64,000 nucleotides of DNA from Leptolyngbya sp. BC1307 (GTDB taxonomy: Bacteria > Cyanobacteriota > Cyanobacteriia > Phormidesmidales > Phormidesmidaceae): contig NZ_NRTA01000011.1 in NCBI RefSeq assembly GCF_002286735.1, forward strand, positions 62,001 to 126,000, in the 5' to 3' direction. The translations under genes were made by a program, and so were the position numbers. The notes beneath the pieces were generated by a model, which worked only from the letters and a program-made list of their open reading frames with translations, had not been told where the DNA came from and searched no databases. This document shows positions 48,230-64,000 of the stretch, one piece after another; positions within the stretch are counted from its first letter, which is position 1; the number at the start of each line of letters is the position of its first letter.

Positions 48230-48739
48230 ATGACCTGTAGGAGTATGGTGAAGTCGCCTATCAGTACATATGCTCATTTGAGAGTTTTGGTTGGTTTTTT
48301 GGGAGAGAAGACTCAGGCTAATTGGTGGCCAACATCGTTTTTCAGTTCGTCGAGTCGTTCGTTTTTGGAACCCGTTTTTTCCAGAAGCATTCGCCTTGCT
48401 CAGTATCATGGTGTGGTGGAATCGGCTCGATATCTGCACGATGGCTATCTTACTCAAGGACGGCTGGGCTTATTTCGGCTATCTGAGGAGATAGAGCAAG
48501 ACCTCCATCGGCTGATAAACCAGGATCCCGATCAGTGGTTTGCTGAGGTCGGTAGCCGTGAACAGGCGATCGCCGCTTTGAGCGAGATCGCAGATGGGAG
48601 CGGTGCGATCGCATCAGGGCCACAGTGTATTGGTACAAGAGCGCAGCTCCTGAGTCAGGATGGGCCGAAGCTGCTGGCGCGCTCTTATGCAAGTGCTTTT
48701 GAGCAAAATATTCAGTGTTTTCCTTACTTTGCAGATTGA
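48230..48739 (+). CDS. brxE: BREX protein BrxE
   Basis: Protein of 169 residues (ATG 48230; in-frame ATG 48245 and GTG 48248, the latter with AGGAG 5 bases upstream, are alternatives). The segment LRVLVGFLGEKTQANWWPTS followed by FSRSIRLAQYHGVVESAR and LFRLSEEIEQDLHRL matches my recollection of the BrxE family, named as part of type 6 BREX. Its role is not established. Its 3' end overlaps brxA by 25 bases, so the two are translationally coupled. In type 6 it precedes brxA exactly as here. Confidence 0.72.
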   Translation: MTCRSMVKSPISTYAHLRVLVGFLGEKTQANWWPTSFFSSSSRSFLEPVFSRSIRLAQYHGVVESARYLHDGYLTQGRLGLFRLSEEIEQDLHRLINQDPDQWFAEVGSREQAIAALSEIADGSGAIASGPQCIGTRAQLLSQDGPKLLARSYASAFEQNIQCFPYFAD

Positions 48740-49530
48740 CCTTGGGAAACGAATCGCTATATACCGCTAGGCTGCAAGCTGGTTTGGGACTCATTTCAGA
48801 GACCAAATCACTGCTCTTACTGTGGAAACCTGATATGACTGTACCTGAGCTGTATAGATCGGCGTTAGAGTCTGGTATGTTTCCGAGCGTGACTGCCCGC
48901 AGATTGCGAAATATTGTGGTGGAGTGCTTTGCTACTCGCTATCTGGTGGATGGTGCAGCGCCTGCTAAGCATCTTCAGAAGCTACTGCCGGGTCTGACTC
49001 GCAGCGACTTACAGCAGTTGCTATTGCTGTTTACCTGTCGAACCAATGCGATTTTGGCAGATTTTATCTATCAGATTTATTGGCCGCGTTACGAGGCGGG
49101 CGATCACAAAATCCACAACGAAACCGCTAGGGCTTTCATCGAGCAGGCTATTGACGATGGGAAAACGGTCAAGCGCTGGTCTGATAAAACAATTCGACGT
49201 ACTGCAAGCCATGTGACTGGCTGCTGTGCCGACTATGGCTTACTAGAGGATGGGCCTCGGCGTAAGCGCAAGTTTTTGCCTTTTCATATCACGGATCTAA
49301 TGACGGTATATCTCGCCTATGACCTACACCACCGAGGATTTAGCGATAAGGCACTGCTAAACCATCCTGACTGGGCTTTGTTTGGGCTGGACTGGGACGA
49401 GGTTTTAGCAGCGCTGAAGCGGTTAGCATTGGATGGCTGGTTTCTGCTACAGGCGGGCGGCGAGGTTGTACGGATTAGCTGGAAGTATCCCAATATGGAG
49501 GCAGTGTGTGATGTCCTCGCTGAAGGCTGA
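48715..49530 (+). CDS. brxA: BREX protein BrxA (DUF1819)
   Basis: Protein of about 271 residues in the DUF1819 family. YTARLQAGLGLISETKSLLLLW leads into helical DNA-binding-like repeats (MFPSVTARRLRNIVVECF) and a winged-helix-like C-terminus. BrxA binds DNA in characterised systems and is needed for defence. The frame begins at GTG 48715; TTG codons near 48736 are alternatives because homology starts shortly after. It overlaps brxE at the 5' end and brxB at the 3' end (by 20 bases). Confidence 0.88.
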   Translation: MFSLLCRLTLGNESLYTARLQAGLGLISETKSLLLLWKPDMTVPELYRSALESGMFPSVTARRLRNIVVECFATRYLVDGAAPAKHLQKLLPGLTRSDLQQLLLLFTCRTNAILADFIYQIYWPRYEAGDHKIHNETARAFIEQAIDDGKTVKRWSDKTIRRTASHVTGCCADYGLLEDGPRRKRKFLPFHITDLMTVYLAYDLHHRGFSDKALLNHPDWALFGLDWDEVLAALKRLALDGWFLLQAGGEVVRISWKYPNMEAVCDVLAEG

Positions 49531-50110
49531 CTTTGAAGACCTCAGGCAAAAGGTGCGCCGAGGGCGCGAGCTAGGGAACGCTAGCTTTGAGCCGGTTTAC
49601 TACCTGGTGTTCAATCCGAGTGACATTTTAAGTGTGAAGCGTCAGCTCGCTGCGTGGCAGGCCGCTTTGAAAAACGACGGCTGGGAGGTGCACATTTTTT
49701 CGATTGCTCAGGTCATTCAGGAAGTATTGCAGCAGGATAAGCGGCGAAAGCTATGGCTAATGGCCGACCGCAAAGCGCCGCATGACTGGACAAAGGCAAA
49801 TCAGTCGCTGGCGAATGCGCTGTCTAATGGTGAGGCTATTCGGGCAAGGTTAGAAACGCTATTAAGCGATTTGAATGATCGCAATGGTGATACGGACAAT
49901 GCCACCGCCAATGCCATCGTGCTGGTGACCGATTTGGAGGCGCTGCATCCTTATCTGCGTATCGGGTCGATTGAGAATCAGTTGCAGGGTCAGTTTAGAG
50001 TGCCTACTATATTTTTGTACCCTGGTGTGCGCACAGGCCAGACTCGGCTCAAGTTTTTGGGATTTTATCCTGAGGATGGCAATTACCGCTCGGTACATGT
50101 GGGTGGCTAG
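49511..50110 (+). CDS. brxB: BREX protein BrxB (DUF1788)
   Basis: Protein of 199 residues from ATG 49511 (MSSLKADFEDLRQKV), the standard length; the frame is open further upstream but inside brxA. The DUF1788 pattern is visible in YYLVFNPSDILSVKRQL, WEVHIFSIAQVIQEVL and the C-terminal FRVPTIFLYPG. BrxB is a small BREX component thought to form a complex with the other proteins. It ends 13 bases before brxC, which has an AAAGGA ribosome-binding site. Confidence 0.88.
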   Translation: MSSLKADFEDLRQKVRRGRELGNASFEPVYYLVFNPSDILSVKRQLAAWQAALKNDGWEVHIFSIAQVIQEVLQQDKRRKLWLMADRKAPHDWTKANQSLANALSNGEAIRARLETLLSDLNDRNGDTDNATANAIVLVTDLEALHPYLRIGSIENQLQGQFRVPTIFLYPGVRTGQTRLKFLGFYPEDGNYRSVHVGG

Positions 50111-50123
50111 AAAAGGATTTTTT

Positions 50124-53100
50124 ATGACGACAACTATTCGCTCTCTGTTTGATCCTCGCAAGGGTTTGGATCGCCCGATTGAAAAAGTAATTACATTCGC
50201 AGCGACCCAGCAAGATCGTCTGAAAGCAGAGATTTCCGAGTACGTAGTCACCGAGAGTATTGAAAACCAGTTTGAGCGACTGCTGAGCCGGATGCAGCTA
50301 GCGATGGAATCGGGCGGCGAAAATGAGATTGGGGTTTGGGTTTCAGGCTTTTATGGCTCGGGGAAAAGCTCTTTTACAAAGTACTTAGGGTTTGCCTTTG
50401 ATGCAGACCAGGATATTGAACAAACGCCTTTTTTGAGATATTTGCAAGACCGGCTAACCAAGCCGCAAACGAAGGCATTGTTAGGTACGGTAGCGCAGCG
50501 CTTTCCGGCGGCTGTGGTCATGCTAGATCTGGCGAGTGAAATGCTGGCGGGGGCGACGATGGAGGATGTTTCTAGCGTTCTCTATTACAAGGTTTTGGAA
50601 TGGGCGGGCTATTCTCGTAATCTCAAGGTAGCGGCGCTGGAACAGCGGATTGAGAAAGACGAGCGAGAGGCTGAGTTTCATGATCGGCTGGCAGCTTTAC
50701 TGCCAGATATTAGTTGGAATGAGCTGCGGAACGATCCCCTTTCGATTGATGCGCTGGTGCCTCAGCTCGCTCACGAAATGTATCCGGCGCTGTTTCCTTC
50801 AGAGAGTTCTTTCAATACAGGAACAGAAGACTATGTGCTGTTTGAGACAGACCGAGTGCAGGAAATGCTGGATATCATCCGGCGTAAGAGCGGTAAGGAG
50901 CATATTCTGTTCATTATCGACGAAGTAGGGCAGTACATTGCTTCGCGAGATAATCTAATCTTGAACCTGGATGGCCTGGCGAAGAATCTCAAAGGGAGAG
51001 GTGAGGGTAAGGTGTGGATTGTTTCCACGGCGCAGCAGACGCTGACGGAGGATGATCCGCGTGCCACGCTCAACTCGGACAAGCTGTACAAACTGAAAGA
51101 CCGGTTTCCAATTCAGATCGACCTTGAATCTAGTGATATTAAGGAGATTTGCTATCGGCGGCTACTGAGCAAATCACCGAGCGGGGAAGCTACGCTAGGG
51201 GCGCTGTTTGATACGCATGGGCAGGCACTTCGCCACAATACCAAGCTGAGAGAGGCCAAAACTTACGAAGCGGATTTTGACAAAACGACCTTTGTCAATC
51301 TCTATCCTTTTATGCCTGCTCATTTTGAGATTTTGCTCAATTTGCTAGGAGCCCTGGCTAAGTCTACAGGCGGGCTGGGGCTGCGGTCGGCGATTAAAGT
51401 GGTGCAAGACACGCTGATAGAAGAGATTAAAGGTGAGCAGCCAGTGGCTGATCGTCCGCTAGGGTGGCTAGCGACGACCGTGACGCTGTACGACATGCTG
51501 GATAAAGATATTCAGAGAGCGTTTCCGTCGGTTTATGGAGCGGCCCAGAAGACCTGCGATATCTACCGGGAAGATCCCCTGCATCAGGAGGTTGCCAAGT
51601 CGATTGCGGTGCTGCAAATTTTGGGAAACCTGCCGGTCACGGTTGAGAATTTGGCGAGCTTGATGCATTCTGCTGTAGATGCTGATTCTTTGGTGGGAGA
51701 AGTGCGGCAGGCAGTAGAGGCGATGCTGCAAGATCCGCTGGTGCCGCTCAGTGAAAAAGAAGGTGGTCTTGGATTTTTGAGCGAAAAGCTGCGCGATATT
51801 GAGCGGGAGAGGACTCAGCTACCGCCCCGGTCGGTAGAGGTGCGCAAGATTATCAACACAAGCTTGAGAGAGATTTTTGACCCGTTGCCCAAGGCTACTT
51901 TACCGGGCAGCTTTTCGGTGCGGGCCGGGTTGAAAGTGATGACCGGTCAGAATATTCAGAGTTTGGCTGGGGAGAAAGATCCGGTGCAACTGCTGGTGAA
52001 TTTTGCTGAGGCGACTGCGTATGAGGGCGATCGCACTACATTTGTTGAAGAATCACGGCAGCGGCAGGCTCAGGATACGATTTACGCCATTGGCAGAACG
52101 CATCCAAATGTACAAATGCTGGCAGAGGAAGTTTACCGCTGTCAGCGTATAGAAGAACTGTATCGGAATGACCCCGATCAGGAAGTGCGCGACTACTGTA
52201 AAAACCAGAAGCTGAGAGCTGATCGCCGCAGCGGTGAGGTGAAGCAGCTTTTGCAGCAGTCATTAAAGGAGGGTTCTTTCATTTTTCGGGGTCAGCCGAC
52301 GGCAGTGTCTACGCTGGGTTCGACGCTGCTAGAAGCGGCGCGTCAGCAGCTTGGCGAGGTTGCCGAGCAGGTGTTTGACCGCTACAGCGAAGCGCCAGTG
52401 AGGGCGGAGACAAGCTTGGCAGAGAAGTTTTTGAAGCAGCCGAATTTGTCAGCGATCGCCTCCGTCCTAGATCCCCTCGACCTGATCCAAAAAGTAGGCG
52501 GCAAGCCCCAAATCCAAACGAGCCAAAAGGCGGTGGTTAGCATCCGCGACTATATTGATCGCAACGGCACCGTAGAAGGCAAACGCCTGAGCGATCATTT
52601 TGGTGCACCGCCCTATGGCTGGTCGCCGGATACGCTGCGCTACATTTTGGCGGCGATGCTGGTGGCCGGTGAGATTACGCTGAAGATATCGGGCCGAGAG
52701 GTGAAAACGGCTGGACAAAAGGCGATTGAGGCGCTGAAAACTAACAAGAGCTTTAGCAAGGTGGGGGTGGGGCTGCGAGATTATCGACCACCCATCGAAG
52801 TGCTAGACCGGGCCAGTGAACGCTTGACTGAGCTGACGGGCGAGAGCGTGATTCCGCTAGAGCAGGAGATTGCTAGGGTAGCGCTGAAGCGGTTTCCGCG
52901 CGACCAGCAGCAGTACAGCCCGCTAGAAGGCAAGCTGGAGAGTCTGAATGTGGTAGGAGCCCAGCGCCTTCGGTCTTTGAATCAGGAGCTGGCAGATATG
53001 CTGCTGAGTGATGCTTCTGAGGCACCGGAGCGTCTGGGGGGTGAAGACTCAGCGCTGTACGAAGACCTGAAGTGGGCATCTGAGCTGAAGCGAGCTTTGG

Positions 53101-53765
53101 ACGATGGGCTGGCAGAGACGTTGAAGCAGTTGCAAATGCATCAGCGAGAGCTAGCAGACTTGCCGGATACCGGTATTTTGGGCACACTGCGCCTGGAGCT
53201 GGCAGAAGAGTTAGAACTGCTAGAGCAGCGGTTGAGCCGGGATGATTTTTATCGGCACAGTACCGAGTTTAATACGACGCTGACGGCGATTCGGACGGGG
53301 GTTCGAGACGCGGTAAGGCAGCTCGCTGAGCAGCAGCAAAAGCTGGCAGATGGCGGCATAGAAGACTTACAGCGATTGCCCGATTGGGCGGAGCTGACGG
53401 ACATTGAGCGCAGCAACGTGAGGACGACGCTAGAGGGCTATCTGATTGAGTCGCCTGCGGAGAATTTGCAGGGGTTAAAGCGGCTGTGGGCCGGTGACTA
53501 TGCGCTGAATAACGCGATCAGGGAGCAGAAGCGGAAAATTGCCCAGACGGCTGAAGGGCGAAGGCTAAAGCGTCGCGAGGAAGAAATTCAGCAGGCCAAA
53601 AAGGCAGGCGATGGTGCGGTGAGCGTGTTTACCGCGTCGGTGCAGATCCCGGCGAGGGTAACTTCGCTGCGGCAGTTGGAGGATGTGCTGACGCGGCTAC
53701 AGGCGCTGAAGGCAGATATGCCGGGGTATGGTCAGATTGATGTGGTAATTGAATTGCAGGAGTAG
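50124..53765 (+). CDS. brxC: BREX P-loop ATPase BrxC
   Basis: Protein of 1213 residues from ATG 50124 (MTTTIRSLFDPRKGLDRPIE), where homology begins. Walker A VSGFYGSGKSSFTK lies at about 72 and Walker B HILFIIDEVGQYI at about 260. The long C-terminal region is helical with leucine-rich coiled-coil stretches (ELADLPDTGILGTLRLELAE, LEQRLSRDDF). BrxC is the large AAA-type scaffold required for BREX defence and methylation. The length matches type 1 and type 6 members. No frameshift or insertion was seen. Confidence 0.93.
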   Translation: MTTTIRSLFDPRKGLDRPIEKVITFAATQQDRLKAEISEYVVTESIENQFERLLSRMQLAMESGGENEIGVWVSGFYGSGKSSFTKYLGFAFDADQDIEQTPFLRYLQDRLTKPQTKALLGTVAQRFPAAVVMLDLASEMLAGATMEDVSSVLYYKVLEWAGYSRNLKVAALEQRIEKDEREAEFHDRLAALLPDISWNELRNDPLSIDALVPQLAHEMYPALFPSESSFNTGTEDYVLFETDRVQEMLDIIRRKSGKEHILFIIDEVGQYIASRDNLILNLDGLAKNLKGRGEGKVWIVSTAQQTLTEDDPRATLNSDKLYKLKDRFPIQIDLESSDIKEICYRRLLSKSPSGEATLGALFDTHGQALRHNTKLREAKTYEADFDKTTFVNLYPFMPAHFEILLNLLGALAKSTGGLGLRSAIKVVQDTLIEEIKGEQPVADRPLGWLATTVTLYDMLDKDIQRAFPSVYGAAQKTCDIYREDPLHQEVAKSIAVLQILGNLPVTVENLASLMHSAVDADSLVGEVRQAVEAMLQDPLVPLSEKEGGLGFLSEKLRDIERERTQLPPRSVEVRKIINTSLREIFDPLPKATLPGSFSVRAGLKVMTGQNIQSLAGEKDPVQLLVNFAEATAYEGDRTTFVEESRQRQAQDTIYAIGRTHPNVQMLAEEVYRCQRIEELYRNDPDQEVRDYCKNQKLRADRRSGEVKQLLQQSLKEGSFIFRGQPTAVSTLGSTLLEAARQQLGEVAEQVFDRYSEAPVRAETSLAEKFLKQPNLSAIASVLDPLDLIQKVGGKPQIQTSQKAVVSIRDYIDRNGTVEGKRLSDHFGAPPYGWSPDTLRYILAAMLVAGEITLKISGREVKTAGQKAIEALKTNKSFSKVGVGLRDYRPPIEVLDRASERLTELTGESVIPLEQEIARVALKRFPRDQQQYSPLEGKLESLNVVGAQRLRSLNQELADMLLSDASEAPERLGGEDSALYEDLKWASELKRALDDGLAETLKQLQMHQRELADLPDTGILGTLRLELAEELELLEQRLSRDDFYRHSTEFNTTLTAIRTGVRDAVRQLAEQQQKLADGGIEDLQRLPDWAELTDIERSNVRTTLEGYLIESPAENLQGLKRLWAGDYALNNAIREQKRKIAQTAEGRRLKRREEEIQQAKKAGDGAVSVFTASVQIPARVTSLRQLEDVLTRLQALKADMPGYGQIDVVIELQE

Positions 53766-53816: not shown

Positions 53817-56243
53817 ATGGCGTTTGATCAGGCGACTCGGAATCGGTTGCAGCGGTTTGTGAGTGAGGGGCGGGCTTTGCTGACGGAGGAGTTTACCCGT
53901 CAGTTGCAAAATGACTATGGCCTGGATCCAGAGTCGGGAGCGGTGACGCCGCTGGAGCGGATGGGGCATTTGGATAGTGCGCGGCAGGAGACGGCTCGGA
54001 TTTTGCGGGTGACGTTGGCGCACTATCAGGCGGGCAGTCAGGTGAGCAGCCAGGCGGGCAGTCAGGCGGCGAAGGACAAGGATTTGCTAGAGCGGATTGT
54101 GCGGGAGCAGGCGTTTACGGTGCTGAATCGGCTGGCGGCGCTGCGGATGGCGGAGGCGCGTGGTTTTTTGATTGAGTCGGTGGCGGTGGGGTATCGCTCG
54201 CAGGGGTTTCAGCTCTATGCGCGGCTGGCGGGCAGCGGTTTGGGCGAGACGGGGGATGCTTACCGCTGCTATTTGTTCAGTTTGTTTGATGAGTTTGCGC
54301 TGGATTTGGCGGTGCTGTTTGATCGCTTTTCGCCGATGGGGCGGCTGTTTCCGCGTGAGGCGACGCTGCTAGCACTGCTGGAGCTGATGAACGATGAGGA
54401 GATTTCGCCGCTGTGGGCTGAGGATGAAACAGTCGGCTGGATTTATCAGTATTTTAACGCCAAGGAGGAGCGTACTCAGATGCGTAAGGCGTCGTCTGCG
54501 CCGCGTAACAGCCGGGAGCTGGCGGTGCGGAATCAGTTTTTTACGCCGCGCTATGTGGTGGAGTTTTTGACCGACAACACGTTGGGGCGAACGTGGTACG
54601 AGATGACGCAGGGGGAGACGGGACTAACGGAGTCTTGTGCGTACCTGGTGCGGCGATCCACGGAGGTGTTTTTGCCCGATCCGGCTCAGCCACTGACGAC
54701 GGCTCCAGCGGCGCGGTGGGTAAAGGCGGTTGCCGAGGGGGACTTTTCTAAGCTGCCGGAGGATCCTTCGATTGAGGAACTCTCTGAGCTTTCGCTGGTG
54801 ATTGATGGCTATGAAGTTGCTGGGCGGCACGGCTATGAAGATGTTGTAGCCTGGGCAGACGGGCAGCTTGAGCAGTACCGGCAGAGCGGGGTTTGGGCGC
54901 TGTCGAGTTTGGAGCTATGGCTGGTTCTGTTTCGGTTGCAGCGCTACTGGGGGCGCAGAAGCTGTGAGCTGAAGGAGACTTTTTATGAGGAGTGGCGTTC
55001 GGTGTATCGGGCGTTTCGAGAGGCGTTTGCAACGGCAGATAAGCCTCAGGCGGAGGTGCTGAAGCAGCCGGTGTATGTGGCGTACCGGGCGCTGAAAGAT
55101 CCGCGTGAGATTCGGATGCTGGATCCGGCCTGCGGGTCGATGCATTTTGGGCTGTATGCGTTTGATTTGTATGAGCGGATGTATGCGGAGGCTTGGGAGC
55201 TAGAGCAGCAGGGAGAGGTGCTATGGCGGCGTCAGGGGCTGAAGCCCTTGGCAGATACGTATGACAGTAAGGAAGATTTGATTAGGGATGTGCCAAGGCT
55301 GATTATTGAGTGCAATATTCACGGGGTAGATATTGATTCGCGGGCGGTGCAGATTGCGGGGCTGTCGCTGTGGCTGCGGGCGCAAAGGAGCTGGCAGGGG
55401 CAGGGGCTAAAGATGAGAGATCGGCCTCAGATTCAGAAGTCGCATATTGTATGCGCGGAGCCGATGCCGGGGGAGGCGCATTTGCTGGCGGAGTTTGTGG
55501 AGCAGCATTTGTCGGCGTCGCCAGAGCAGCGGCTGATTGGGCAGTTAGTAAAGCGGGTGTTTGAGGCGATGAAGCTGGCGGGCGAGGCGGGAACCTTGCT
55601 GAGAATTGATCGGACGATTGAGCGAGATATTCAGGAAGCGAAGGAGCAGTGGGCAAAGCTGCCAAAGGGAGAGCAGCTAGTGCTAATGGATTTGGATGCA
55701 GATCAGCCGAAGCAGCAGGAGCTGGCTTTGGCCGTGGCTGAGATTACAGATGAGCGGTTTTGGCTGAAGGCTGAAGATGAAATTTATGCAGCGCTGAGGC
55801 GGTATGCAGAAAAAGCTGAGAGATTAGATACGGACGCTGACGAACGGTCGGGGCGGTTTCAGCGGCGGCTGTTTGCCCAGGATGCGGCGAAGGGATTTGC
55901 CTTTGTGGATTTGTGCCGGAAGCGCTACAGCGTGACGCTGATGAATCCGCCGTTTGGGGCGGGTAGCTTGCAGACAAAAGCGATGCTAGCGAAGGCTTAT
56001 CCACGGACTAAGAATGATGTGTATGCGGCTTTTGTAGAGCGGGGGCTACAAGTGCTAGAGACGGCTGGGCATTTGGGGGCGATTACGTCGCGGACGGGCT
56101 TTTTCTTATCGTCGTTTCAAAAGTGGCGGGAGGAGATTTTGCTGAAGGAATCGCGGCCTACGGTGTTTGCGGATTTGGGGGCGGGGGTTTTGGATGCGGC
56201 GATGGTGGAGACGGCTGCGTATTGCCTAGTCAAGGTAATTTAG
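53817..56243 (+). CDS. pglX: PglX adenine methyltransferase, N-terminal part (gene interrupted)
   Basis: This 808-residue frame holds the catalytic half of the BREX methyltransferase PglX. NQFFTPRYVVEFLTDNTLGRTW precedes motif I MLDPACGSMHFGLYAFDLYE (about 433) and motif IV LMNPPFGAGS (about 709). It ends abruptly after DAAMVETAAYCLVKV, where PglX normally continues into its target-recognition part. That continuation is found about 980 bases downstream, at 57221. The gap holds a toxin-antitoxin pair. Without its recognition part this product alone is unlikely to methylate DNA specifically. Codons in this half favour G at the third position. Confidence 0.9.
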   Translation: MAFDQATRNRLQRFVSEGRALLTEEFTRQLQNDYGLDPESGAVTPLERMGHLDSARQETARILRVTLAHYQAGSQVSSQAGSQAAKDKDLLERIVREQAFTVLNRLAALRMAEARGFLIESVAVGYRSQGFQLYARLAGSGLGETGDAYRCYLFSLFDEFALDLAVLFDRFSPMGRLFPREATLLALLELMNDEEISPLWAEDETVGWIYQYFNAKEERTQMRKASSAPRNSRELAVRNQFFTPRYVVEFLTDNTLGRTWYEMTQGETGLTESCAYLVRRSTEVFLPDPAQPLTTAPAARWVKAVAEGDFSKLPEDPSIEELSELSLVIDGYEVAGRHGYEDVVAWADGQLEQYRQSGVWALSSLELWLVLFRLQRYWGRRSCELKETFYEEWRSVYRAFREAFATADKPQAEVLKQPVYVAYRALKDPREIRMLDPACGSMHFGLYAFDLYERMYAEAWELEQQGEVLWRRQGLKPLADTYDSKEDLIRDVPRLIIECNIHGVDIDSRAVQIAGLSLWLRAQRSWQGQGLKMRDRPQIQKSHIVCAEPMPGEAHLLAEFVEQHLSASPEQRLIGQLVKRVFEAMKLAGEAGTLLRIDRTIERDIQEAKEQWAKLPKGEQLVLMDLDADQPKQQELALAVAEITDERFWLKAEDEIYAALRRYAEKAERLDTDADERSGRFQRRLFAQDAAKGFAFVDLCRKRYSVTLMNPPFGAGSLQTKAMLAKAYPRTKNDVYAAFVERGLQVLETAGHLGAITSRTGFFLSSFQKWREEILLKESRPTVFADLGAGVLDAAMVETAAYCLVKVI

Positions 56244-56324
56244 CTTTTTGAATTAGGCTCAAAGTCGTTAGGTAGCTTTATGCTGGAGAGGCGTTGATGT
56301 TCGATATGAGGAGGGACTTGAAGG

Positions 56325-56567
56325 ATGCTTCAAACTGAAGTACGTCAGAAACTGCATCAGCAGATCGATCAGCTTCCGGCTGATTTGCTGGAGTTGGTTG
56401 CTGAGTTTTTAGAATTCGTCAGGTTCAAGCGTGCTAGGGCCACGAACTCTACTCAGCGCCCTGACATGAAGGGGCTGTGGGCTGATTTTGATTTTGATAT
56501 TGGCGAAGAAGATATCGCTGCTGCGCGGAAAGAACTGTGGAATAATTTTCCGAAGGATATTGCATGA
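56325..56567 (+). CDS. DUF2281-type antitoxin
   Basis: Protein of 80 residues. QKLHQQIDQLPADLLELVAEFLEFVRF is the DUF2281 core, and the tail DFDFDIGEEDIAAARKELWNNF would wrap the toxin. Antitoxins of this kind pair with PIN-domain RNases and repress their own operon. The start of the toxin gene overlaps its end by four bases (ATGA). The pair sits inside the interrupted pglX gene, the only such arrangement in the window. Confidence 0.88.
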   Translation: MLQTEVRQKLHQQIDQLPADLLELVAEFLEFVRFKRARATNSTQRPDMKGLWADFDFDIGEEDIAAARKELWNNFPKDIA

Positions 56568-56968
56568 GCGCTGTTGTGGCAGATACCCATGCTGTGATCT
56601 GGTTCCTAAGGAATGCGAAGCAGTTATCAGATAATGCTGCTACTGCTATGGATGGTGCCATTCAGTCTAATCAGCCTATCTACATTGCTTCTATTTCTTT
56701 AGTCGAAATGGTTTATTTGACGGAGCGGGACAGAATCCCAGCCGCTGCATTTGAGAAGTTGATGGCAACTTTAGATAAGCCTATTAGCACATTTGAAGTT
56801 GTCCCCCTCGATCTCACTATCACGCTTGAGCTAGCCAGTATTGATCGCGCTATTGTCCCTGAAATGCCCGATCGCATCATCGCCGCCACGGCTCAATCTT
56901 TGGGGCTCCCTCTTGTTACTCGCGATCGCTCAATCCAAAACCTCTCGACTCTCAAAACTATTTGGTAA
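56564..56968 (+). CDS. PIN-domain toxin (VapC family)
   Basis: Protein of 134 residues with the PIN ribonuclease fold: VADTHAVIWFL supplies the first aspartate (about D6), LVEMVYL the glutamate (about E46), MPDRIIAATAQ the next aspartate (about D105) and VTRDRSIQNL the fourth (about D123). All four metal-binding acids are present, so it is probably active. The partner antitoxin lies directly upstream. VapC-type toxins cleave tRNA or rRNA and stop growth when the antitoxin is lost. Placement inside pglX could make loss of this segment costly. Confidence 0.9.
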   Translation: MSAVVADTHAVIWFLRNAKQLSDNAATAMDGAIQSNQPIYIASISLVEMVYLTERDRIPAAAFEKLMATLDKPISTFEVVPLDLTITLELASIDRAIVPEMPDRIIAATAQSLGLPLVTRDRSIQNLSTLKTIW

Positions 56969-57074
56969 GGCATCTAGAATATGACTGTAATCAATATTCA
57001 CAAGAAGTGTAAGAAACGCGATCACCCACAGAATTTCGATGATGTATTTGCTTAATACTCACTACTGTAATTGA

Positions 57075-57221
57075 ATGAACCGGAAGCAAATTACTGAGAT
57101 GCAAGACTTGCCGATTCATTACTATTTTGATGTTAATTTTAATCAGGTTTGGCAGACGGGTGAGCAAGATTTGCCGGTACTAAAAAGTACATTTGTCATG
57201 CTGTTACAAAAGAAAAATTAA
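57075..57221 (+). CDS. Possible 48-residue leader ORF coupled to the pglX C-terminal half
   Basis: A short frame beginning MNRKQITEMQDLPIHYYFDV and ending QKKN has its TAA stop overlapping the ATG of the next gene (TAATG at 57219-57223). I see no family and no strong ribosome-binding site. The overlap would allow ribosomes to reinitiate on the downstream PglX half. It may equally be remnant DNA brought with the toxin-antitoxin insertion. The stretch 56969-57074 before it shows no other gene. Confidence 0.35.
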   Translation: MNRKQITEMQDLPIHYYFDVNFNQVWQTGEQDLPVLKSTFVMLLQKKN

Positions 57222-59194
57222 TGTCTGGAACTATCTTCTTCCGACTGCTTGATGCAGAAGACAAAGGGCTTGCTTTACTACAAGCTGTCGATGCTCTGCC
57301 ACAAGAGCCAACACCAGAATCAATTATAACAAAGTCACGTTCTTTTCAACAAGTTCCAGGGTCGCCATTTTCTTATTGGGTAAATGAATCAATTAGAAAG
57401 AAGTTTGCTCAGTTGGAACTTCTTGAGTCGGATAGCAGGACAGCTAAACAGGGCTTAGCGACGGCAGAAGATTTTCGTTTTGTTAGAACTATGTGGGAGG
57501 GAAATCTATCGAAGCGTAAAACGCCACAGGTTTTTCCTTTTGCGAAAGGCGGTGGTTTTTCGAAGTTCTATGCCGATATTTATCTAAGCGTAAATTGGAG
57601 TAATTCTGGGAACGAAATTGCTGCCTTTCCGAGAGCTTACATTCGCAATGCAGACTATTACTTTAGACCTGGATTAACTTGGTCTCTTCGTAGTCAGAAA
57701 GGATTGAGTGTTCGGTTGATCCCCAGGGGTTGTACTTTTGGACATAAAGGGCCAAGTATCTTTCTGAAAGACGATAATCTGCAAGAAATTTTATCGCTAT
57801 TAGCTATAGCAAACAGCCAAGCCTTCCTTGCTCTCGTCGAATTGCAAATGGCCTTTGGTTCCTACGAAGTAGGTGTCCTTCAGAGAACGCCTATTCCAGA
57901 GCTGAACAAGGAATCTAAGATAAACCTTGCTGATTTAGCTCATAGATCTTGGTTACTCAAACGAGACTTAGACACCAGCACCCAAACATCCCATGCCTTT
58001 ATCCTTCCTGCCCTTCTTCAGACTAAAGGTACTACCCTTACTGGTCGCGCTCAATCTTGGACAACAAGAATCACTGCTACTGAACAACAGCTTTCTGATA
58101 TTCAGCAAGAAATCGATGACATTGCCTTCAAGCTTTACGATATCAGCCCCGAAGAAATCAGCAGCAATCAACAATCCATAGCCACCGAAGTTGAAACTGA
58201 GGAAGACGAAGACACCATAGAACCTGCCGATCTATCCGCTCTCACCCATAGCCTAATCGAGTATAATCTCGGCACCGCCCTGGGCCGCTTCGACATCCGC
58301 CTCGCCACCGAAGAGCGCGAACAACCTCCCGAACCCGAACCCTTCGATCCACTCCCCGCCTGCTCCCCCGGCATGTTGGTCGCAAACAATAATCTCCCTC
58401 CGACCTCCCCTGAAGAACTTCCCCCCAATTACCCTGTCGATATCCCCTTCAACGGCATTTTAGTAGATGACGAAAGTCACCCAAACGACATCATCCGCCG
58501 CATTCGCCCAGTCTTCGACATCATCTTTTCAGACCAAGCAGGAGACATCGAACAAGAAGCCTGCCAACACCTCAAAACCGCCAGCCTACGCGACTACTTC
58601 GCCAAACCCAACGCCTTCTTCACCCAGCACCTCAGCCGCTACTCCAAAAGCCGCCGCTACGCCCCCCTCTACTGGCCCCTCTCCACCCCCTCCGGCAGCT
58701 ACACCCTCTGGATTTACTACCACCGCCTCACCGACCAAACCCTCTACACCGCCATCAACGACCACCTCGAACCCAAACTCCGCCAAACCACCCAAACCGT
58801 CACCCAGCTCCTTAGCCAACCCAACCGCAGCAGCGCCGACAGCCAAACCCTCGAAACCCTGCAAACCCTAGAACAAGAACTCACCGACCTGCGCGACCAG
58901 CTCCTCCGCATCGCCCAGCTCCCCTACAAACCCAACCTCAACGACGGCGTCCAAATCACCGCCGCCCCCCTCTGGCCGCTCTTTCGCCTAAAAAAATGGC
59001 AAGACAAGCTCAAAGACACCTGGGAAGCCCTCGAAACCGGTGACTACGACTGGGCACACCTGGCCTACAGCATTTGGCCTGAGCGAGTGCAGGAGAAGTG
59101 TAAAAAGGATAGATCATTGGCGATCGCCCACAACCTCGAATCCCTCTACGAACCCCCACCCGAAACTACTCCGAAAAAGAAGAAAAGGAAATAG
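57221..59194 (+). CDS. pglX: PglX methyltransferase, C-terminal part (target-recognition and C-terminal domains)
   Basis: Protein of 657 residues starting at ATG 57221 with SGTIFFRLLDAEDKGLALLQ, a segment that normally continues PglX past its catalytic part. Then come PGSPFSYWVNESIRKKF and WEGNLSKRKT, typical of target-recognition domains, a helical middle and a C-terminus ending in PPPETTPKKKKRK. The first 800 bases are AT-rich; from about 58250 the gene becomes strongly C-rich, unlike the G-rich N-terminal half. This suggests the recognition part came from another source. Together with the upstream half it would rebuild a PglX of ordinary domain content if the two proteins associate. Confidence 0.85.
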   Translation: MSGTIFFRLLDAEDKGLALLQAVDALPQEPTPESIITKSRSFQQVPGSPFSYWVNESIRKKFAQLELLESDSRTAKQGLATAEDFRFVRTMWEGNLSKRKTPQVFPFAKGGGFSKFYADIYLSVNWSNSGNEIAAFPRAYIRNADYYFRPGLTWSLRSQKGLSVRLIPRGCTFGHKGPSIFLKDDNLQEILSLLAIANSQAFLALVELQMAFGSYEVGVLQRTPIPELNKESKINLADLAHRSWLLKRDLDTSTQTSHAFILPALLQTKGTTLTGRAQSWTTRITATEQQLSDIQQEIDDIAFKLYDISPEEISSNQQSIATEVETEEDEDTIEPADLSALTHSLIEYNLGTALGRFDIRLATEEREQPPEPEPFDPLPACSPGMLVANNNLPPTSPEELPPNYPVDIPFNGILVDDESHPNDIIRRIRPVFDIIFSDQAGDIEQEACQHLKTASLRDYFAKPNAFFTQHLSRYSKSRRYAPLYWPLSTPSGSYTLWIYYHRLTDQTLYTAINDHLEPKLRQTTQTVTQLLSQPNRSSADSQTLETLQTLEQELTDLRDQLLRIAQLPYKPNLNDGVQITAAPLWPLFRLKKWQDKLKDTWEALETGDYDWAHLAYSIWPERVQEKCKKDRSLAIAHNLESLYEPPPETTPKKKKRK

Positions 59195-59298: not shown

Positions 59299-59586
59299 AT
59301 GACGCCAAAACAGCAGCTTCTTAAAGAGCTAGAAAACACACCGACGCCCCTGGTAACCGCAGTTCTCAACTTTCTGCGCTTCCTGAAGGCAAAGCAGCCC
59401 CCAACCGACTTTGCGGAATTTGCAGGCATAGCAGCAGATGACTACAGCCCCATAGACAACACTATTGAGAATGCCGAGCGCGATCGCCAGCCCAAACGCA
59501 AACCCGGATTACACCCGGATGCTTTCGTCATCAGCGATGACTTTAACGAGCCACTACTTGATAGCTTCTGGCTGGGTGAAGAATAA
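59299..59586 (+). CDS. Orphan DUF2281-type antitoxin
   Basis: Protein of 95 residues. LLKELENTPTPLVTAVLNFLRFL is the DUF2281-like core, and the acidic tail VISDDFNEPLLDSFWLGEE is the toxin-binding signature common in these antitoxins. The expected partner, a PIN or RelE toxin, is missing: its place is taken by pglZ, whose ATG overlaps this stop (TAATG). It may have lost its toxin, act on the PIN toxin upstream, or regulate pglZ by translational coupling. Confidence 0.75.
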   Translation: MTPKQQLLKELENTPTPLVTAVLNFLRFLKAKQPPTDFAEFAGIAADDYSPIDNTIENAERDRQPKRKPGLHPDAFVISDDFNEPLLDSFWLGEE

Positions 59587-62111
59587 TGAGCATTGCCGAA
59601 TTTATTAGAGACGATATTTTGGGCGATCGCCTCAAAAAAGCCGAATGCCTCGTCGTCTACGATCCCAACCACCGCTACCATGACCTTTGCCTGGACTTAA
59701 CCAGCGACGACATTCAGGTCATCGACACCTCCGAAAGCAGCATCGAAAGCCGCGAGCAGGCCCAAACCGCCTTTGCTCACCTCAGCCGCAGCGCCCTCAA
59801 AGGCATGGTCGTCTACATCCCGACTCATGCCCCCCGCACCGACGAGCAAAAGCAAGCCGATCCCTTCTCCATCTACGCCCTGTGCGGCGCACAGTTCCCC
59901 GCCGACGATGGCGACGACTACCTCAACCTGTGCCTGCGAGCCAAGCCCGAACACAGCACCGAAATCCGCCGCATTTTCAACGACAACCCCGCTCCCCCCT
60001 TCGACGCCATCAACGCCATCGGCGGCGGCATCCACTGGCCCCAGCTCAGAGCCACCCTCAAAGCAGACTCCGCCGAAGACATTCTGATGGCCCTCATGGC
60101 CCCTTCCTCAGCGCAAACCGACTCGCTGAAAACGCAGGAAGGCTGGCATCCCGAAGCCAAAGACTTCCTCAAAGCCGCCCTTGGCCTCAAGCTCAAAACC
60201 CGCGCCAAAACCTGGAAACCCATCGCCGATGAGCTTTGGCGCTTTATCCTCTTCAGCGAATTTGTCTTCGACCTGCCCGTTCCTTTGCCCAGCACGATTC
60301 AAGACGTTCCCGCCGCACCCGCCGAAGCCAAATCCCTGATCTGCGCCCTGTGCGAACGACTGCGCAACGATAAACGCTACCAAGACCCTTACATCAAACG
60401 GGCAGAAACCGTCGAGCAAGAAATGAACCTGGACACAGCCTGCCGCCAGATCGAAGACCTGGGCGAACTCGATACCTTTCCCTTTGAAGAACGCACCTTT
60501 TTGCAGCAGGCCATCAAAGGCTTGGAAACCAACGACCTCGACAAAACCCGTCAGCTCCTGAGCCGCCACACTCGCTCCATTTGGCACAGCAAAGGCGAAA
60601 ACCAGGAGCAGTGGGCGCTCTTACAGTCAGCCATGAACCTGATTGTGACCTGCCAGGATTGCGATCGCCTCTTGCCCGAATACAGAGCCAGCCAGGAACA
60701 TCTGATCAGCTTTTACATTGAAAAGCTTCGAGAAGCCGATAGCCGCCAGCGCGAATTTGCCGCCAGCCTTGGGGCCGCGATCAGCCCGTATGATTTGCTT
60801 GAGGATGCGATTGCGATCGCCCACAGCCACTACAGACGGCTGATCGAAAAAGTCCAAACCCTATTCACCCAGCAGCTCGAAAAAGAAGGCTGGCCCGCCC
60901 CAGACCGCATTAGTAACGCCAGCGTATTTGATCGCTTTGTCGCCCCGCGCCTGAGCCAAAAAGGTCAGCGAGTTGCCTACTTGCTGATCGATGCCCTGCG
61001 CTACGAACTCGGCGTAGAACTCGAAAAGCTGCTGACTGAAGTCGGCTCTGTAGAGCTATATCCAGCCTGCGCCCAGCTCCCCAGCATTACCCTGGTGGGT
61101 ATGGCTAGCCTGCTGCCCAACGCCGAAAATGACCTGGTGCTCACCGTGGAAGATGGCAGGCTGATCCCGAAGTTGGGAGAAGTAACGGTCGGTAATGTAA
61201 GCCAGCGGATGGGTGTTTTGAGGAAGGAGTTGGGCGATCGCTTCACAGAAATGCCTTTGAGAGACTTCGTCAAAAAGAAAAAGCCCAAAGTAGAACCCAC
61301 CGTCGATCTCTTAGTTCTCCGCAGCACAGAAATCGATAGCCAGCTAGAATCGAACCCCGAAGACACCCTGAGCCTGATTCCCAAAACCCTGAGAGATATC
61401 CGAGTGGCGCTCTCCAAACTCAGCCAGATCGGCTTTCAAGACGCCATCATTGTCAGCGACCACGGCTTTTTCTTAAACACCCACGCTGAAGCAGGCGATG
61501 TCTGCACCAAGCCTCCAGGCGATTGGCTCCACAACGCCCACGACCGTATGCTCTTAGGCAAAGGCAGCGAAGACGCCCACAACTGTGTTTTCAGCGCTGA
61601 CAAGCTCGGCATTCGCGGTAGCTTTGGCCAAGTCGCCCTGCCCAAAACCATGGCCCCCTACCGAGCCGGTCATCTTTATTTTCATGGGGGCATTTCCTTA
61701 GCTGAAGCGATCGTACCCGTCATCCTGGTGCGGCTAGACGCTGTCCAACCTGAAGACACCCATAAGTTCCAATTAGACTTGACCTATAAGCGCAACGCCA
61801 AAAAAATCACCACCCGCCTACCGCGCATCGACATCGAGCTGACCACCCAGGGCAATCTCTTTACCAGCACCGAAAGCTGCGAAATCTTACTAGAAGCCCG
61901 AGACTCATCCGATAATGTCATCGGCGAGCCTCGTCCCAGTGAAGATATCAACCCTGCCACCGGCACCATTACCCTGATTGCAGGCGAGCAAAAATCAATT
62001 ATGCTGCGCATGGATCCTAGCTACGAAGGCAAGTTCACCATCAAAGCGCTAGAACCGACAACACTCACCACCTACGCCAGTTTGCCACTACAGACCGACT
62101 ACACTGTCTAG
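59586..62111 (+). CDS. pglZ: BREX phosphatase-like protein PglZ
   Basis: Protein of 841 residues, the length of type 1 BREX PglZ. The alkaline-phosphatase-fold domain has LLIDALRYELGVEL at about 465, with a metal-binding aspartate, and AIIVSDHGFFLNTH at about 620, with the second Asp-His set. A C-terminal beta domain follows (SCEILLEARDSS, KFTIKALEP). PglZ is essential for BREX, although its substrate is not settled. Its start overlaps the antitoxin-like gene. The first part of the gene is C-rich, like the end of pglX. Confidence 0.92.
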   Translation: MSIAEFIRDDILGDRLKKAECLVVYDPNHRYHDLCLDLTSDDIQVIDTSESSIESREQAQTAFAHLSRSALKGMVVYIPTHAPRTDEQKQADPFSIYALCGAQFPADDGDDYLNLCLRAKPEHSTEIRRIFNDNPAPPFDAINAIGGGIHWPQLRATLKADSAEDILMALMAPSSAQTDSLKTQEGWHPEAKDFLKAALGLKLKTRAKTWKPIADELWRFILFSEFVFDLPVPLPSTIQDVPAAPAEAKSLICALCERLRNDKRYQDPYIKRAETVEQEMNLDTACRQIEDLGELDTFPFEERTFLQQAIKGLETNDLDKTRQLLSRHTRSIWHSKGENQEQWALLQSAMNLIVTCQDCDRLLPEYRASQEHLISFYIEKLREADSRQREFAASLGAAISPYDLLEDAIAIAHSHYRRLIEKVQTLFTQQLEKEGWPAPDRISNASVFDRFVAPRLSQKGQRVAYLLIDALRYELGVELEKLLTEVGSVELYPACAQLPSITLVGMASLLPNAENDLVLTVEDGRLIPKLGEVTVGNVSQRMGVLRKELGDRFTEMPLRDFVKKKKPKVEPTVDLLVLRSTEIDSQLESNPEDTLSLIPKTLRDIRVALSKLSQIGFQDAIIVSDHGFFLNTHAEAGDVCTKPPGDWLHNAHDRMLLGKGSEDAHNCVFSADKLGIRGSFGQVALPKTMAPYRAGHLYFHGGISLAEAIVPVILVRLDAVQPEDTHKFQLDLTYKRNAKKITTRLPRIDIELTTQGNLFTSTESCEILLEARDSSDNVIGEPRPSEDINPATGTITLIAGEQKSIMLRMDPSYEGKFTIKALEPTTLTTYASLPLQTDYTV

Positions 62112-62130: not shown

Positions 62131-64000
62131 ATGAACTCACTCGATCACAAGCTAAACGACATCTTCGAGGGCAAAGTTGTCCGCAAAGATCTGCTGCATC
62201 GCATCAAAAAAGGTACCAACGTGCCGACTTTTGTACTAGAGTTTCTTCTGGCCAAATATTGTGCCAGCAACGATGCGTTAGAGATTAACGCCGGGATGGA
62301 AGCGGTGCTAGCCACCTTACAGGACAACTACGTGCGCCCAGACGAAGCCAACATGGCTCAGTCAAAAGTCGCCACCAAAGGCAGCTATCGCTTTATCGAT
62401 AAAGTCCACGTCCGCTATGTCGAAAAAGAAAAGCGCCACTGGGCAGCACTAGAAAACTTCAACTCTCAGCGCATTGCCATCAGCCAACAGTTCTACAAAG
62501 ATAATGATCGCCTGCTAGAAGGCGGCATTTGGGCTGAACTCACCATCGCCTACAACGACATTGAAGAAGACGATTACGCCTTCTACATCGAAGATCTCAG
62601 ACCCATTCAGCTCAGCCGCTTCAACTTTGAAGACTACGCCAAAAAAAGAGAAGAATTTAGCCGCGACGAGTGGCTAGCCGCCATCCTACGCACTGTCGGT
62701 TTAGATCCCAGCAAGCTCTCTCAAAGACAGCTATTCCACTACATTATGCGGTTGGCTCCCCTGGTAGAACCAAACTATAACTTTATTGAGCTTGGCCCTA
62801 GAGGCACCGGAAAATCTTACTTTTTCAGCGAGTTTTCTCCTTACTCCACTCTGGTCAGTGGGGGACAGGCCACCAAGGCCACTTTGTTTTATAACAACGC
62901 CCGAGGCAAAGTCGGCCTCGTCGGGTTTTGGGATACCATCGCCTTCGATGAGGTCGGCGGCATCAAAGTCAAAGATCCCGACACCATTCAAATCATGAAG
63001 GATTTCATGGCAAATGGCCGCTTTTCACGAGGGGTTGAAGTCATCGCCGATGCCAGCCTAGCCTTCGTCGGCAACATCGACATGTCGGTAGAGCAAATCG
63101 TCAACTCCAGCCAATACGACCTTTTCCAACCGCTCCCGCCTCAATTTGACTTAGCCATCATGGATCGCTTTGCCTGCTACCTACCCGGCTGGGAAATGCC
63201 CAAAAATAGCAGCAACTTTTTAACCAACGACTACGGCTTCATCACCGACTATTTGGCCGAAGCCTTTCACTACGTCTTTCAGCACACCAATCGTTACGAA
63301 GAAGTAACCCGGCGCGTTCGCTTAGGTTCTGCCGTTGAAGGACGCGATGAAAAGGGCATCAAAAAAACCGTAGCCGCATTCTTAAAAATCCTTCACCCTT
63401 CTGGCGCTGCAACCGATCAGGAACTAGAGGAATACGTCGCCTATGCGGTGGAATCACGCAGGCGGGTCAAAGAGCAAATGAACAAACGCAAACCCGACGA
63501 TGAGTTTGCGCGAATTGGGCTGTCGTACTTCAATACTGAAGGCAAAGAAATCATCGTCTTCTGCCCAGAATCCAAAAACGCCCCGGCCACTCAAGACCCC
63601 ACTCGAAGCAACCTCAAAGACGCTGAAAATCTGGAACCTGCTCAACCGGACTCTGCTCAAAAAAGCAAAAGTATTCAACCAGAAGATCAGCCGACTTTGT
63701 CTGATCCTATTGCAGCCGAAAAAACGCTGCCATCACCAGAAGCACAGCATTTCACAATTTACTACGGTGATACGGGTCATAGCTACGACTCCATTTTTGG
63801 CCCTTACTTTCAGGGAGCCAAAATCGTTACCATCGAAGATCCTTACATTCGTGCCTCTCACCAAATTCAGAATTTCGTTCGCTTCTGCGAAACAGCCGTC
63901 AAAGCAGGCACCATCAAACAAATAGACCTCACAACTAGCTACGATGGCTCAACGTCCCTGACTGAAATTCAAGAGAAGCTGAAAGACCTTCAACAAAGCC
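62131..64000 (+). CDS. brxL: BREX Lon-like ATPase BrxL, 5' part (runs off window)
   Basis: Starts at ATG 62131 (MNSLDHKLNDIFEGKVVRKD) and is open to the window end (623 residues visible). The N-terminal domain is followed by an AAA-type ATPase with Walker A LGPRGTGKSYFFSEF at about 222, DEVGG at about 271 and SRGVEVIADASLAFVGNI at about 300. A linker of about 60 polar residues leads to a C-terminal segment (FTIYYGDTGHSYDSIFG, then IEDPYIRASHQIQNFVRFCE) resembling the MIT_C-type domain found in some long BrxL proteins. BrxL is the effector that defines type 1 BREX. It follows pglZ by 19 bases. Confidence 0.93.
   Translation, partial: MNSLDHKLNDIFEGKVVRKDLLHRIKKGTNVPTFVLEFLLAKYCASNDALEINAGMEAVLATLQDNYVRPDEANMAQSKVATKGSYRFIDKVHVRYVEKEKRHWAALENFNSQRIAISQQFYKDNDRLLEGGIWAELTIAYNDIEEDDYAFYIEDLRPIQLSRFNFEDYAKKREEFSRDEWLAAILRTVGLDPSKLSQRQLFHYIMRLAPLVEPNYNFIELGPRGTGKSYFFSEFSPYSTLVSGGQATKATLFYNNARGKVGLVGFWDTIAFDEVGGIKVKDPDTIQIMKDFMANGRFSRGVEVIADASLAFVGNIDMSVEQIVNSSQYDLFQPLPPQFDLAIMDRFACYLPGWEMPKNSSNFLTNDYGFITDYLAEAFHYVFQHTNRYEEVTRRVRLGSAVEGRDEKGIKKTVAAFLKILHPSGAATDQELEEYVAYAVESRRRVKEQMNKRKPDDEFARIGLSYFNTEGKEIIVFCPESKNAPATQDPTRSNLKDAENLEPAQPDSAQKSKSIQPEDQPTLSDPIAAEKTLPSPEAQHFTIYYGDTGHSYDSIFGPYFQGAKIVTIEDPYIRASHQIQNFVRFCETAVKAGTIKQIDLTTSYDGSTSLTEIQEKLKDLQQS

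Follow-up and report, generated by a model that had tools for sequence, protein, structure and literature searches.

A putative two-gene PglX methylase with toxin-antitoxin cargo at its gene junction in a cyanobacterial BREX operon

In descriptions of BREX the methylase is a single protein that includes its own recognition domain, and a 2025 review treats that domain as an integral part of the enzyme (PMC12707154). In the BREX operon of Leptolyngbya sp. BC1307 analysed here there is no single full-length pglX; the gene is represented by two open reading frames (ORFs) separated by 977 nt, with genes of a toxin-antitoxin (TA) type lying between them. The question this raises is whether the TA genes have broken a methylase or whether the two ORFs are the working genes of one enzyme. 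A preliminary description of the locus had left both outcomes standing, a two-subunit PglX or a switched-off methylase, and in either case made the TA module the agent of the split. Throughout, the window is the whole stretch of DNA analysed, 64,000 nt in length.

The window carries a complete BREX type 1-like set, brxA, brxB, brxC, pglX in two parts, pglZ and brxL, recognised by PADLOC and Pfam matches with the exception of brxB, which was assigned from its homologous position; all are on the forward strand. The gene brxA (48715-49530; Pfam BrxA 2.7e-23, PADLOC BrxA 1.6e-102) is followed by brxB (49511-50110), an ORF with homologues at the same position in relatives, its start being set by homology to the sequence MSSLKADFDEL in those relatives, and then by brxC (50121-53765; PADLOC BrxC, 1793 bits). 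The first part of pglX, pglX-N (53817-56243), encodes 808 aa made up of an N-terminal helical domain and an N6-adenine methyltransferase domain with the motifs DPACGS and NPPF, and is the putative catalytic subunit. The second part, pglX-C (57221-59194), encodes 657 aa comprising a target-recognition domain (TRD), spacer helices and a C-terminal domain, and is the putative specificity subunit. Downstream lie pglZ (59586-62111; PADLOC PglZ, 1140 bits) and brxL (62131-63999; Pfam BrxL_ATPase 3e-119, PADLOC BrxL 1e-260), which continues beyond the window end.

The protein encoded by pglX-N ends in VETAAYCLVKVI, followed by a stop at 56243, and that encoded by pglX-C begins MSGTIFFRLLDAEDKG, with its own ATG at 57221, where the full-length PglX sequence resumes. 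When the two are set against the PADLOC full-length PglX model PDLC02527, which has 1332 positions, pglX-N matches positions 1-658 and pglX-C positions 666-1300, so that only about seven linker positions are missing. PADLOC also has a model for each half, one finishing and the other beginning at the present split site, namely PDLC02526, matched by pglX-N up to 639 of 640, and PDLC02532, matched by pglX-C at 2-625 of 682. Automatic annotation scores the halves as incomplete PglX, and against NCBIfam BREX_1_MTaseX they reach 439 and 335 bits, each under the 500-bit cut-off. The Pfam Eco57I family is matched by pglX-N at 7e-17, and DPACGS and NPPF are invariant in the alignment analysed. The last conserved strand, ETAAYCLVK, resembles what we take to be the final strand of the N6-methyltransferase catalytic fold, and pglX-N would thus hold the whole catalytic domain. 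By sequence pglX-N aligns to the portion of BrxX/PglX before about residue 606, and pglX-C to residues 645-967 of E. coli BrxX, the TRD region, and to Salmonella PglX from residue 620; in the solved structures the hinge between the methylase and recognition halves is at about 660 (PMC11842806, PMC11341690). The best match of each predicted fold is likewise a solved PglX/BrxX (E 2e-15 for pglX-C), with a pglX-C model of only moderate quality (pLDDT 68) and low confidence over the last 50 residues of the pglX-N model. Alignment to full-length PglX thus bears out the earlier placing of the break at the catalytic/recognition boundary, and the coordinates first given were correct. The closest cyanobacterial relatives of pglX-N are 685 aa in length, and residues 287-410 of the window protein (54675-55046) are about 120 extra residues relative to them; the pglX-N of Lyngbya has extra sequence in the same mid-protein region.

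Between the halves, and as first described, lies a TA-type pair. A putative DUF2281/VapB-like antitoxin (56325-56567, forward strand) has a weak Pfam DUF2281 match of 1.1e-3 that is under the gathering score and a likewise weak NCBIfam VapB match of 2.1e-3; the putative PIN/VapC-like toxin (56564-56968, forward strand) overlaps it by 4 bases (56564-56567) and passes the Pfam PIN cut-off at 1.4e-12, whilst the NCBIfam VapB and VapC models score far below theirs. Reading of the toxin sequence finds the four acidic residues D7, E48, D102 and D120, and the pair has the layout of the VapBC type, a small antitoxin gene adjacent to and overlapping a PIN toxin gene with the catalytic acids present. 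Behind it, at 56983-57075, is a fossil of the antitoxin/toxin junction of another TA pair, of Lyngbya type (74% identical in nucleotides to locus L025 across 69 nt), and then a 48-aa ORF of no family (57075-57221), whose stop codon and the ATG of pglX-C share a base in the sequence TAATG; both are on the forward strand. No convincing direct or inverted repeats flank the insert, and no sigma-70 promoter is predicted in the slot, the region having a single one where 3.4 would be expected, a weak test for cyanobacteria. The pair is read in the operon direction and is probably on the same transcript.

Such a picture might suggest that a once-intact pglX was destroyed when a TA module landed in it, with methylation lost and the TA genes remaining as a passenger or as the holder of a dead system. 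The fossil of a second TA pair in the same slot fits that history, interruption and irregularity of pglX are a known theme, and two truncated pglX genes in an Antarctic cyanobacterium were read as non-functional (PMC9716671). We nevertheless regard it as very improbable, given what relatives of the locus show.

Relatives were gathered with pglX-N as query from 84,980 species genomes and by whole-genome and plasmid searches, which returned both fused and split pglX. The split form is found in Cyanobacteria, Chloroflexota, Pseudomonadota, Myxococcota and Actinomycetota, and in split loci the N half ends at a conserved AAYxLxK and the C half begins MTxFLRLL. Nineteen of the 28 N/C junctions that could be read end to end hold no cargo between the halves, and stop and start codons overlap in 16 of 17 junctions inspected (that of L056 was classed as ATGA by script and is TGATG by eye). 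As TA-free operons in several phyla have the same boundary, the TA modules must have entered a pre-existing junction, and the proposal that TA insertion caused the split of pglX is rejected. It had been suggested that relatives with and without the segment be sought; both exist, and the former include other TA pairs in the same slot, but the majority of junctions are free of cargo. A read-level error at either junction is very unlikely because relatives have the same two-gene boundary, and no second pglX of this type was found in the genome. The arrangement of pglX-N, TA genes and pglX-C is far beyond chance.

A single origin of the split form as one clade on the methyltransferase tree was rejected (p-AU 0.002), and a tree of the whole N half gives the same picture. 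Fused and split forms interdigitate, with fused loci nested in split groups in Pseudomonadota, and repeated fission or re-fusion must therefore have occurred. Sampling of 369 Gammaproteobacteria genomes and 386 Cyanobacteriota genomes gave no new loci of the split kind; that of Chloroflexota yielded L089 and L090. In L061 (1-9914) pglZ comes directly after pglX-N with the pglX-C genes several kb upstream. A Rubrobacter contig (L066, 7599-8144) has a short, fragment-like ORF that matches the final 44 residues of pglX-N with 80% identity.

Selection bears on whether the halves are still in use. Between relatives pglX-N has a dN/dS of 0.05-0.10 and the TA genes one of 0.04-0.13, indicating purifying selection on both, and the reading frame of pglX-C is intact in all relatives aligned, at 35-64% identity. 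The loci L015, L016 and L019 share 95-97% identity in their N halves, whereas identity drops to 30-50% in the recognition windows of C and returns to about 90% in the C tail where both are complete; the recognition part is AT-rich, with a GC3 of 34-38% against 67-77% in the flanks. At the level of sequence this divergent recognition part between conserved flanks is the signature of recognition-domain exchange where a system is functioning, and the swaps are located within C, away from the TA boundary. The window and its relatives have a specificity gene apart from the catalytic one within a single operon, and L050 (9929-14286) has two, pglX-C genes in tandem after one pglX-N, joined by a 4-base ATGA overlap and with divergent recognition parts. 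Purifying selection, the turnover of recognition domains and the tandem C genes favour an active catalytic/recognition pair; a switched-off methylase is disfavoured by the same observations together with the intact C frames, and of the two outcomes originally offered the two-subunit PglX is the better. GC skew at third codon positions changes sign between the two sides of the split, from +0.44 in brxC and +0.73 in pglX-N to -0.71 in late pglX-C and -0.47 in pglZ; the flip has the same direction but is weaker in L015 and L016, and is absent in L022.

It would therefore seem likely, as far as comparison of genes can tell, that the operon encodes an active two-gene PglX in which pglX-N and pglX-C act together, and whose junctions serve as slots for TA cargo. 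The product of pglX-N would be the methyltransferase subunit and that of pglX-C the target-recognition subunit, the two presumably assembling into one methylase; on this reading they work as HsdM and HsdS do, and the methylase would be active and not broken. PglX/BrxX of BREX type 1 (E. coli 9ewz, Salmonella 8c45) has the same domain order and the same operon, brxABC-pglX-pglZ-brxL, and the halves align to it by sequence and fold, but it is one polypeptide where here there are two genes. The likeness to Type I restriction-modification at the level of genes lies in separate catalytic and specificity genes within one operon, a fast-evolving recognition domain and sometimes several specificity genes; the sequence, however, is that of PglX rather than HsdS, and the partner genes are those of BREX. 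Counting against the two-subunit reading is the report that the Salmonella PglX C-terminal domain could not be expressed alone (PMC11341690). Were pglX-N and pglX-C a natural catalytic/recognition pair, recognition subunits might be exchangeable or freely paired in the manner of HsdS, and there would be a route to expressing the recognition domain as a separate protein.

Both the N/C junction and the junction behind pglX-C are slots that accept small accessory modules, which in cyanobacteria are mostly TA pairs. Cargo of 0.67-3.0 kb is present in nine of the 28 readable N/C junctions, including that of the window, seven being of TA type and two not. L015 carries HicB-like/HicA with UPF0175 and TumE, L016 ParD/ParE, and L019 a DUF2281-like/PIN_3 pair with UPF0175 and further genes. 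L034, L059 and L047 carry PIN pairs in which the toxin was recognised by Pfam and the small upstream gene, having no Pfam match, was called an antitoxin from its position alone. Of the two loci with non-TA cargo, L068, on a plasmid of Thioflavicoccus, has a UvrD-like gene with DUF2290, and L089 has a NACHT protein. Among junctions seen from one side, PIN genes occur in L025 and L017, of the same Lyngbya genome, a Fic gene in the opposite orientation in L026, and a NACHT protein in L044. In the two Chloroflexota loci, L089 (5994-8966) and L044 (from 1483), the NACHT protein is of about 900-1000 aa and directly behind pglX-N, overlapping its stop. All cargo apart from that of L026 is oriented in the operon direction, and in three loci, L016, L059 and L047, the toxin gene runs four bases into pglX-C, its stop and the start of the next gene lying together in ATGA. 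L047 (8001-14839) is atypical, with the order pglX-N, an antitoxin-like ORF, an ORF with a piece of N, PIN, a truncated pglX-C and a second pglX-N; it has been rearranged or duplicated, unless the assembly is at fault.

The second slot with much cargo is the C/pglZ junction, where TA genes occur in L015, L016, L017, L048 and L068 and GmrSD-like and other genes elsewhere; the start of pglZ aligns badly in distant loci, so that some of the gap lengths at this junction may be too large. In the window it holds a lone putative DUF2281/VapB-like antitoxin (59299-59586, forward strand; Pfam DUF2281 2.1e-6, NCBIfam VapB 3.2e-8) whose stop overlaps the pglZ start; L015 and L017 have DUF2281 with its PIN partner kept at this position. 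Sequence matches between L015, L016 and L019 break off within the N/C slot, which holds different TA genes despite the near-identical N halves, and in L017 the beginning of pglX-C is duplicated over 71 nt. These differences, together with the fossil in the window, indicate that TA modules come and go in the slot.

Such traffic could also mean that the slot is a neutral landing site, where TA modules, being common in cyanobacteria, persist since they are harmless to expression. The presence of TA and other genes in the C/pglZ junction as well would fit this, and short repeats near the slot and the duplicated C start of L017 suggest frequent rearrangement. TA genes are, however, absent from the brxC/N and pglZ/brxL junctions of the same operons, at 0 of 51 against seven of 28 N/C junctions (Fisher 4e-4, a value that is indicative only and overstates independence, since the loci are related), with non-TA cargo present in six brxC/N junctions, and the TA genes themselves are under purifying selection. 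Neutrality is therefore possible but rather doubtful.

A closer tie has also to be weighed, in which the TA acts directly on BREX, either sensing that the two-subunit PglX has been lost or inhibited, as by an anti-BREX protein, and aborting the cell, or regulating pglX-C, and through it specificity switching, by means of the antitoxin, in the manner of TvrAT at tvr. Different TA families occur in the same slot, three loci have the toxin cistron overlapping that of pglX-C, and at a Type I locus of S. pneumoniae the TA pair TvrAT beside hsdS suppresses shuffling (PMC6265443). We consider direct action unlikely, as the cargo includes non-TA genes, most two-gene loci are cargo-free, and the exchange of recognition domains takes place inside C. 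The SpnIV tvr locus resembles the present one in having a TA pair (TvrAT, phd-doc) beside specificity genes within a modification operon (PMC6265443), but is recombinase-driven with spare TRD cassettes, whereas no spare TRD gene was found in this genome and the TA families vary by locus. It seems quite improbable, too, that the TA genes work as partners of the two-gene PglX, toxins of unrelated families having been recruited to one junction so that co-translation with the recognition subunit would detect PglX loss or inhibition or choose the recognition subunit.

From their family names, the TA pairs are probably addiction modules or backup abortive-infection effectors carried by the operon; were the operon lost or shut down, the stable toxin would be left without its antitoxin. 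A backup role has been ascribed to PIN, HEPN, Schlafen and other effectors located in or next to BREX loci (Rakesh and Krishnan 2026, PMC12839542), and the available part of that paper does not name a separate TRD gene or a slot between pglX halves. Ca. Regnicoccus frigidus has a cyanobacterial pglX in two pieces that jointly make a full gene, but this was interpreted as truncation in a limited system, and the part of the report available mentions no intervening TA (PMC9716671). Effectors including PIN near BREX, and one two-piece cyanobacterial pglX, are thus already known; the standing two-gene PglX and the TA slot are apparently new, no description of either having been found in the open-access papers searched. 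The N/C slot offers a natural experiment on why TA modules gather in defence operons, with unrelated families at one site and TA-free relatives as controls.

The surroundings of the operon may also be of interest. Beside it, on the reverse strand at 21931-44480 of the window, are large genes that by eye resemble a conjugation cluster, with coupling-protein-like, VirB10-like and VirB4-like ATPase genes and a 2220-aa methylase/helicase; three proteins tested from this region had no Pfam match. A mobile element may be the home of the BREX operon.
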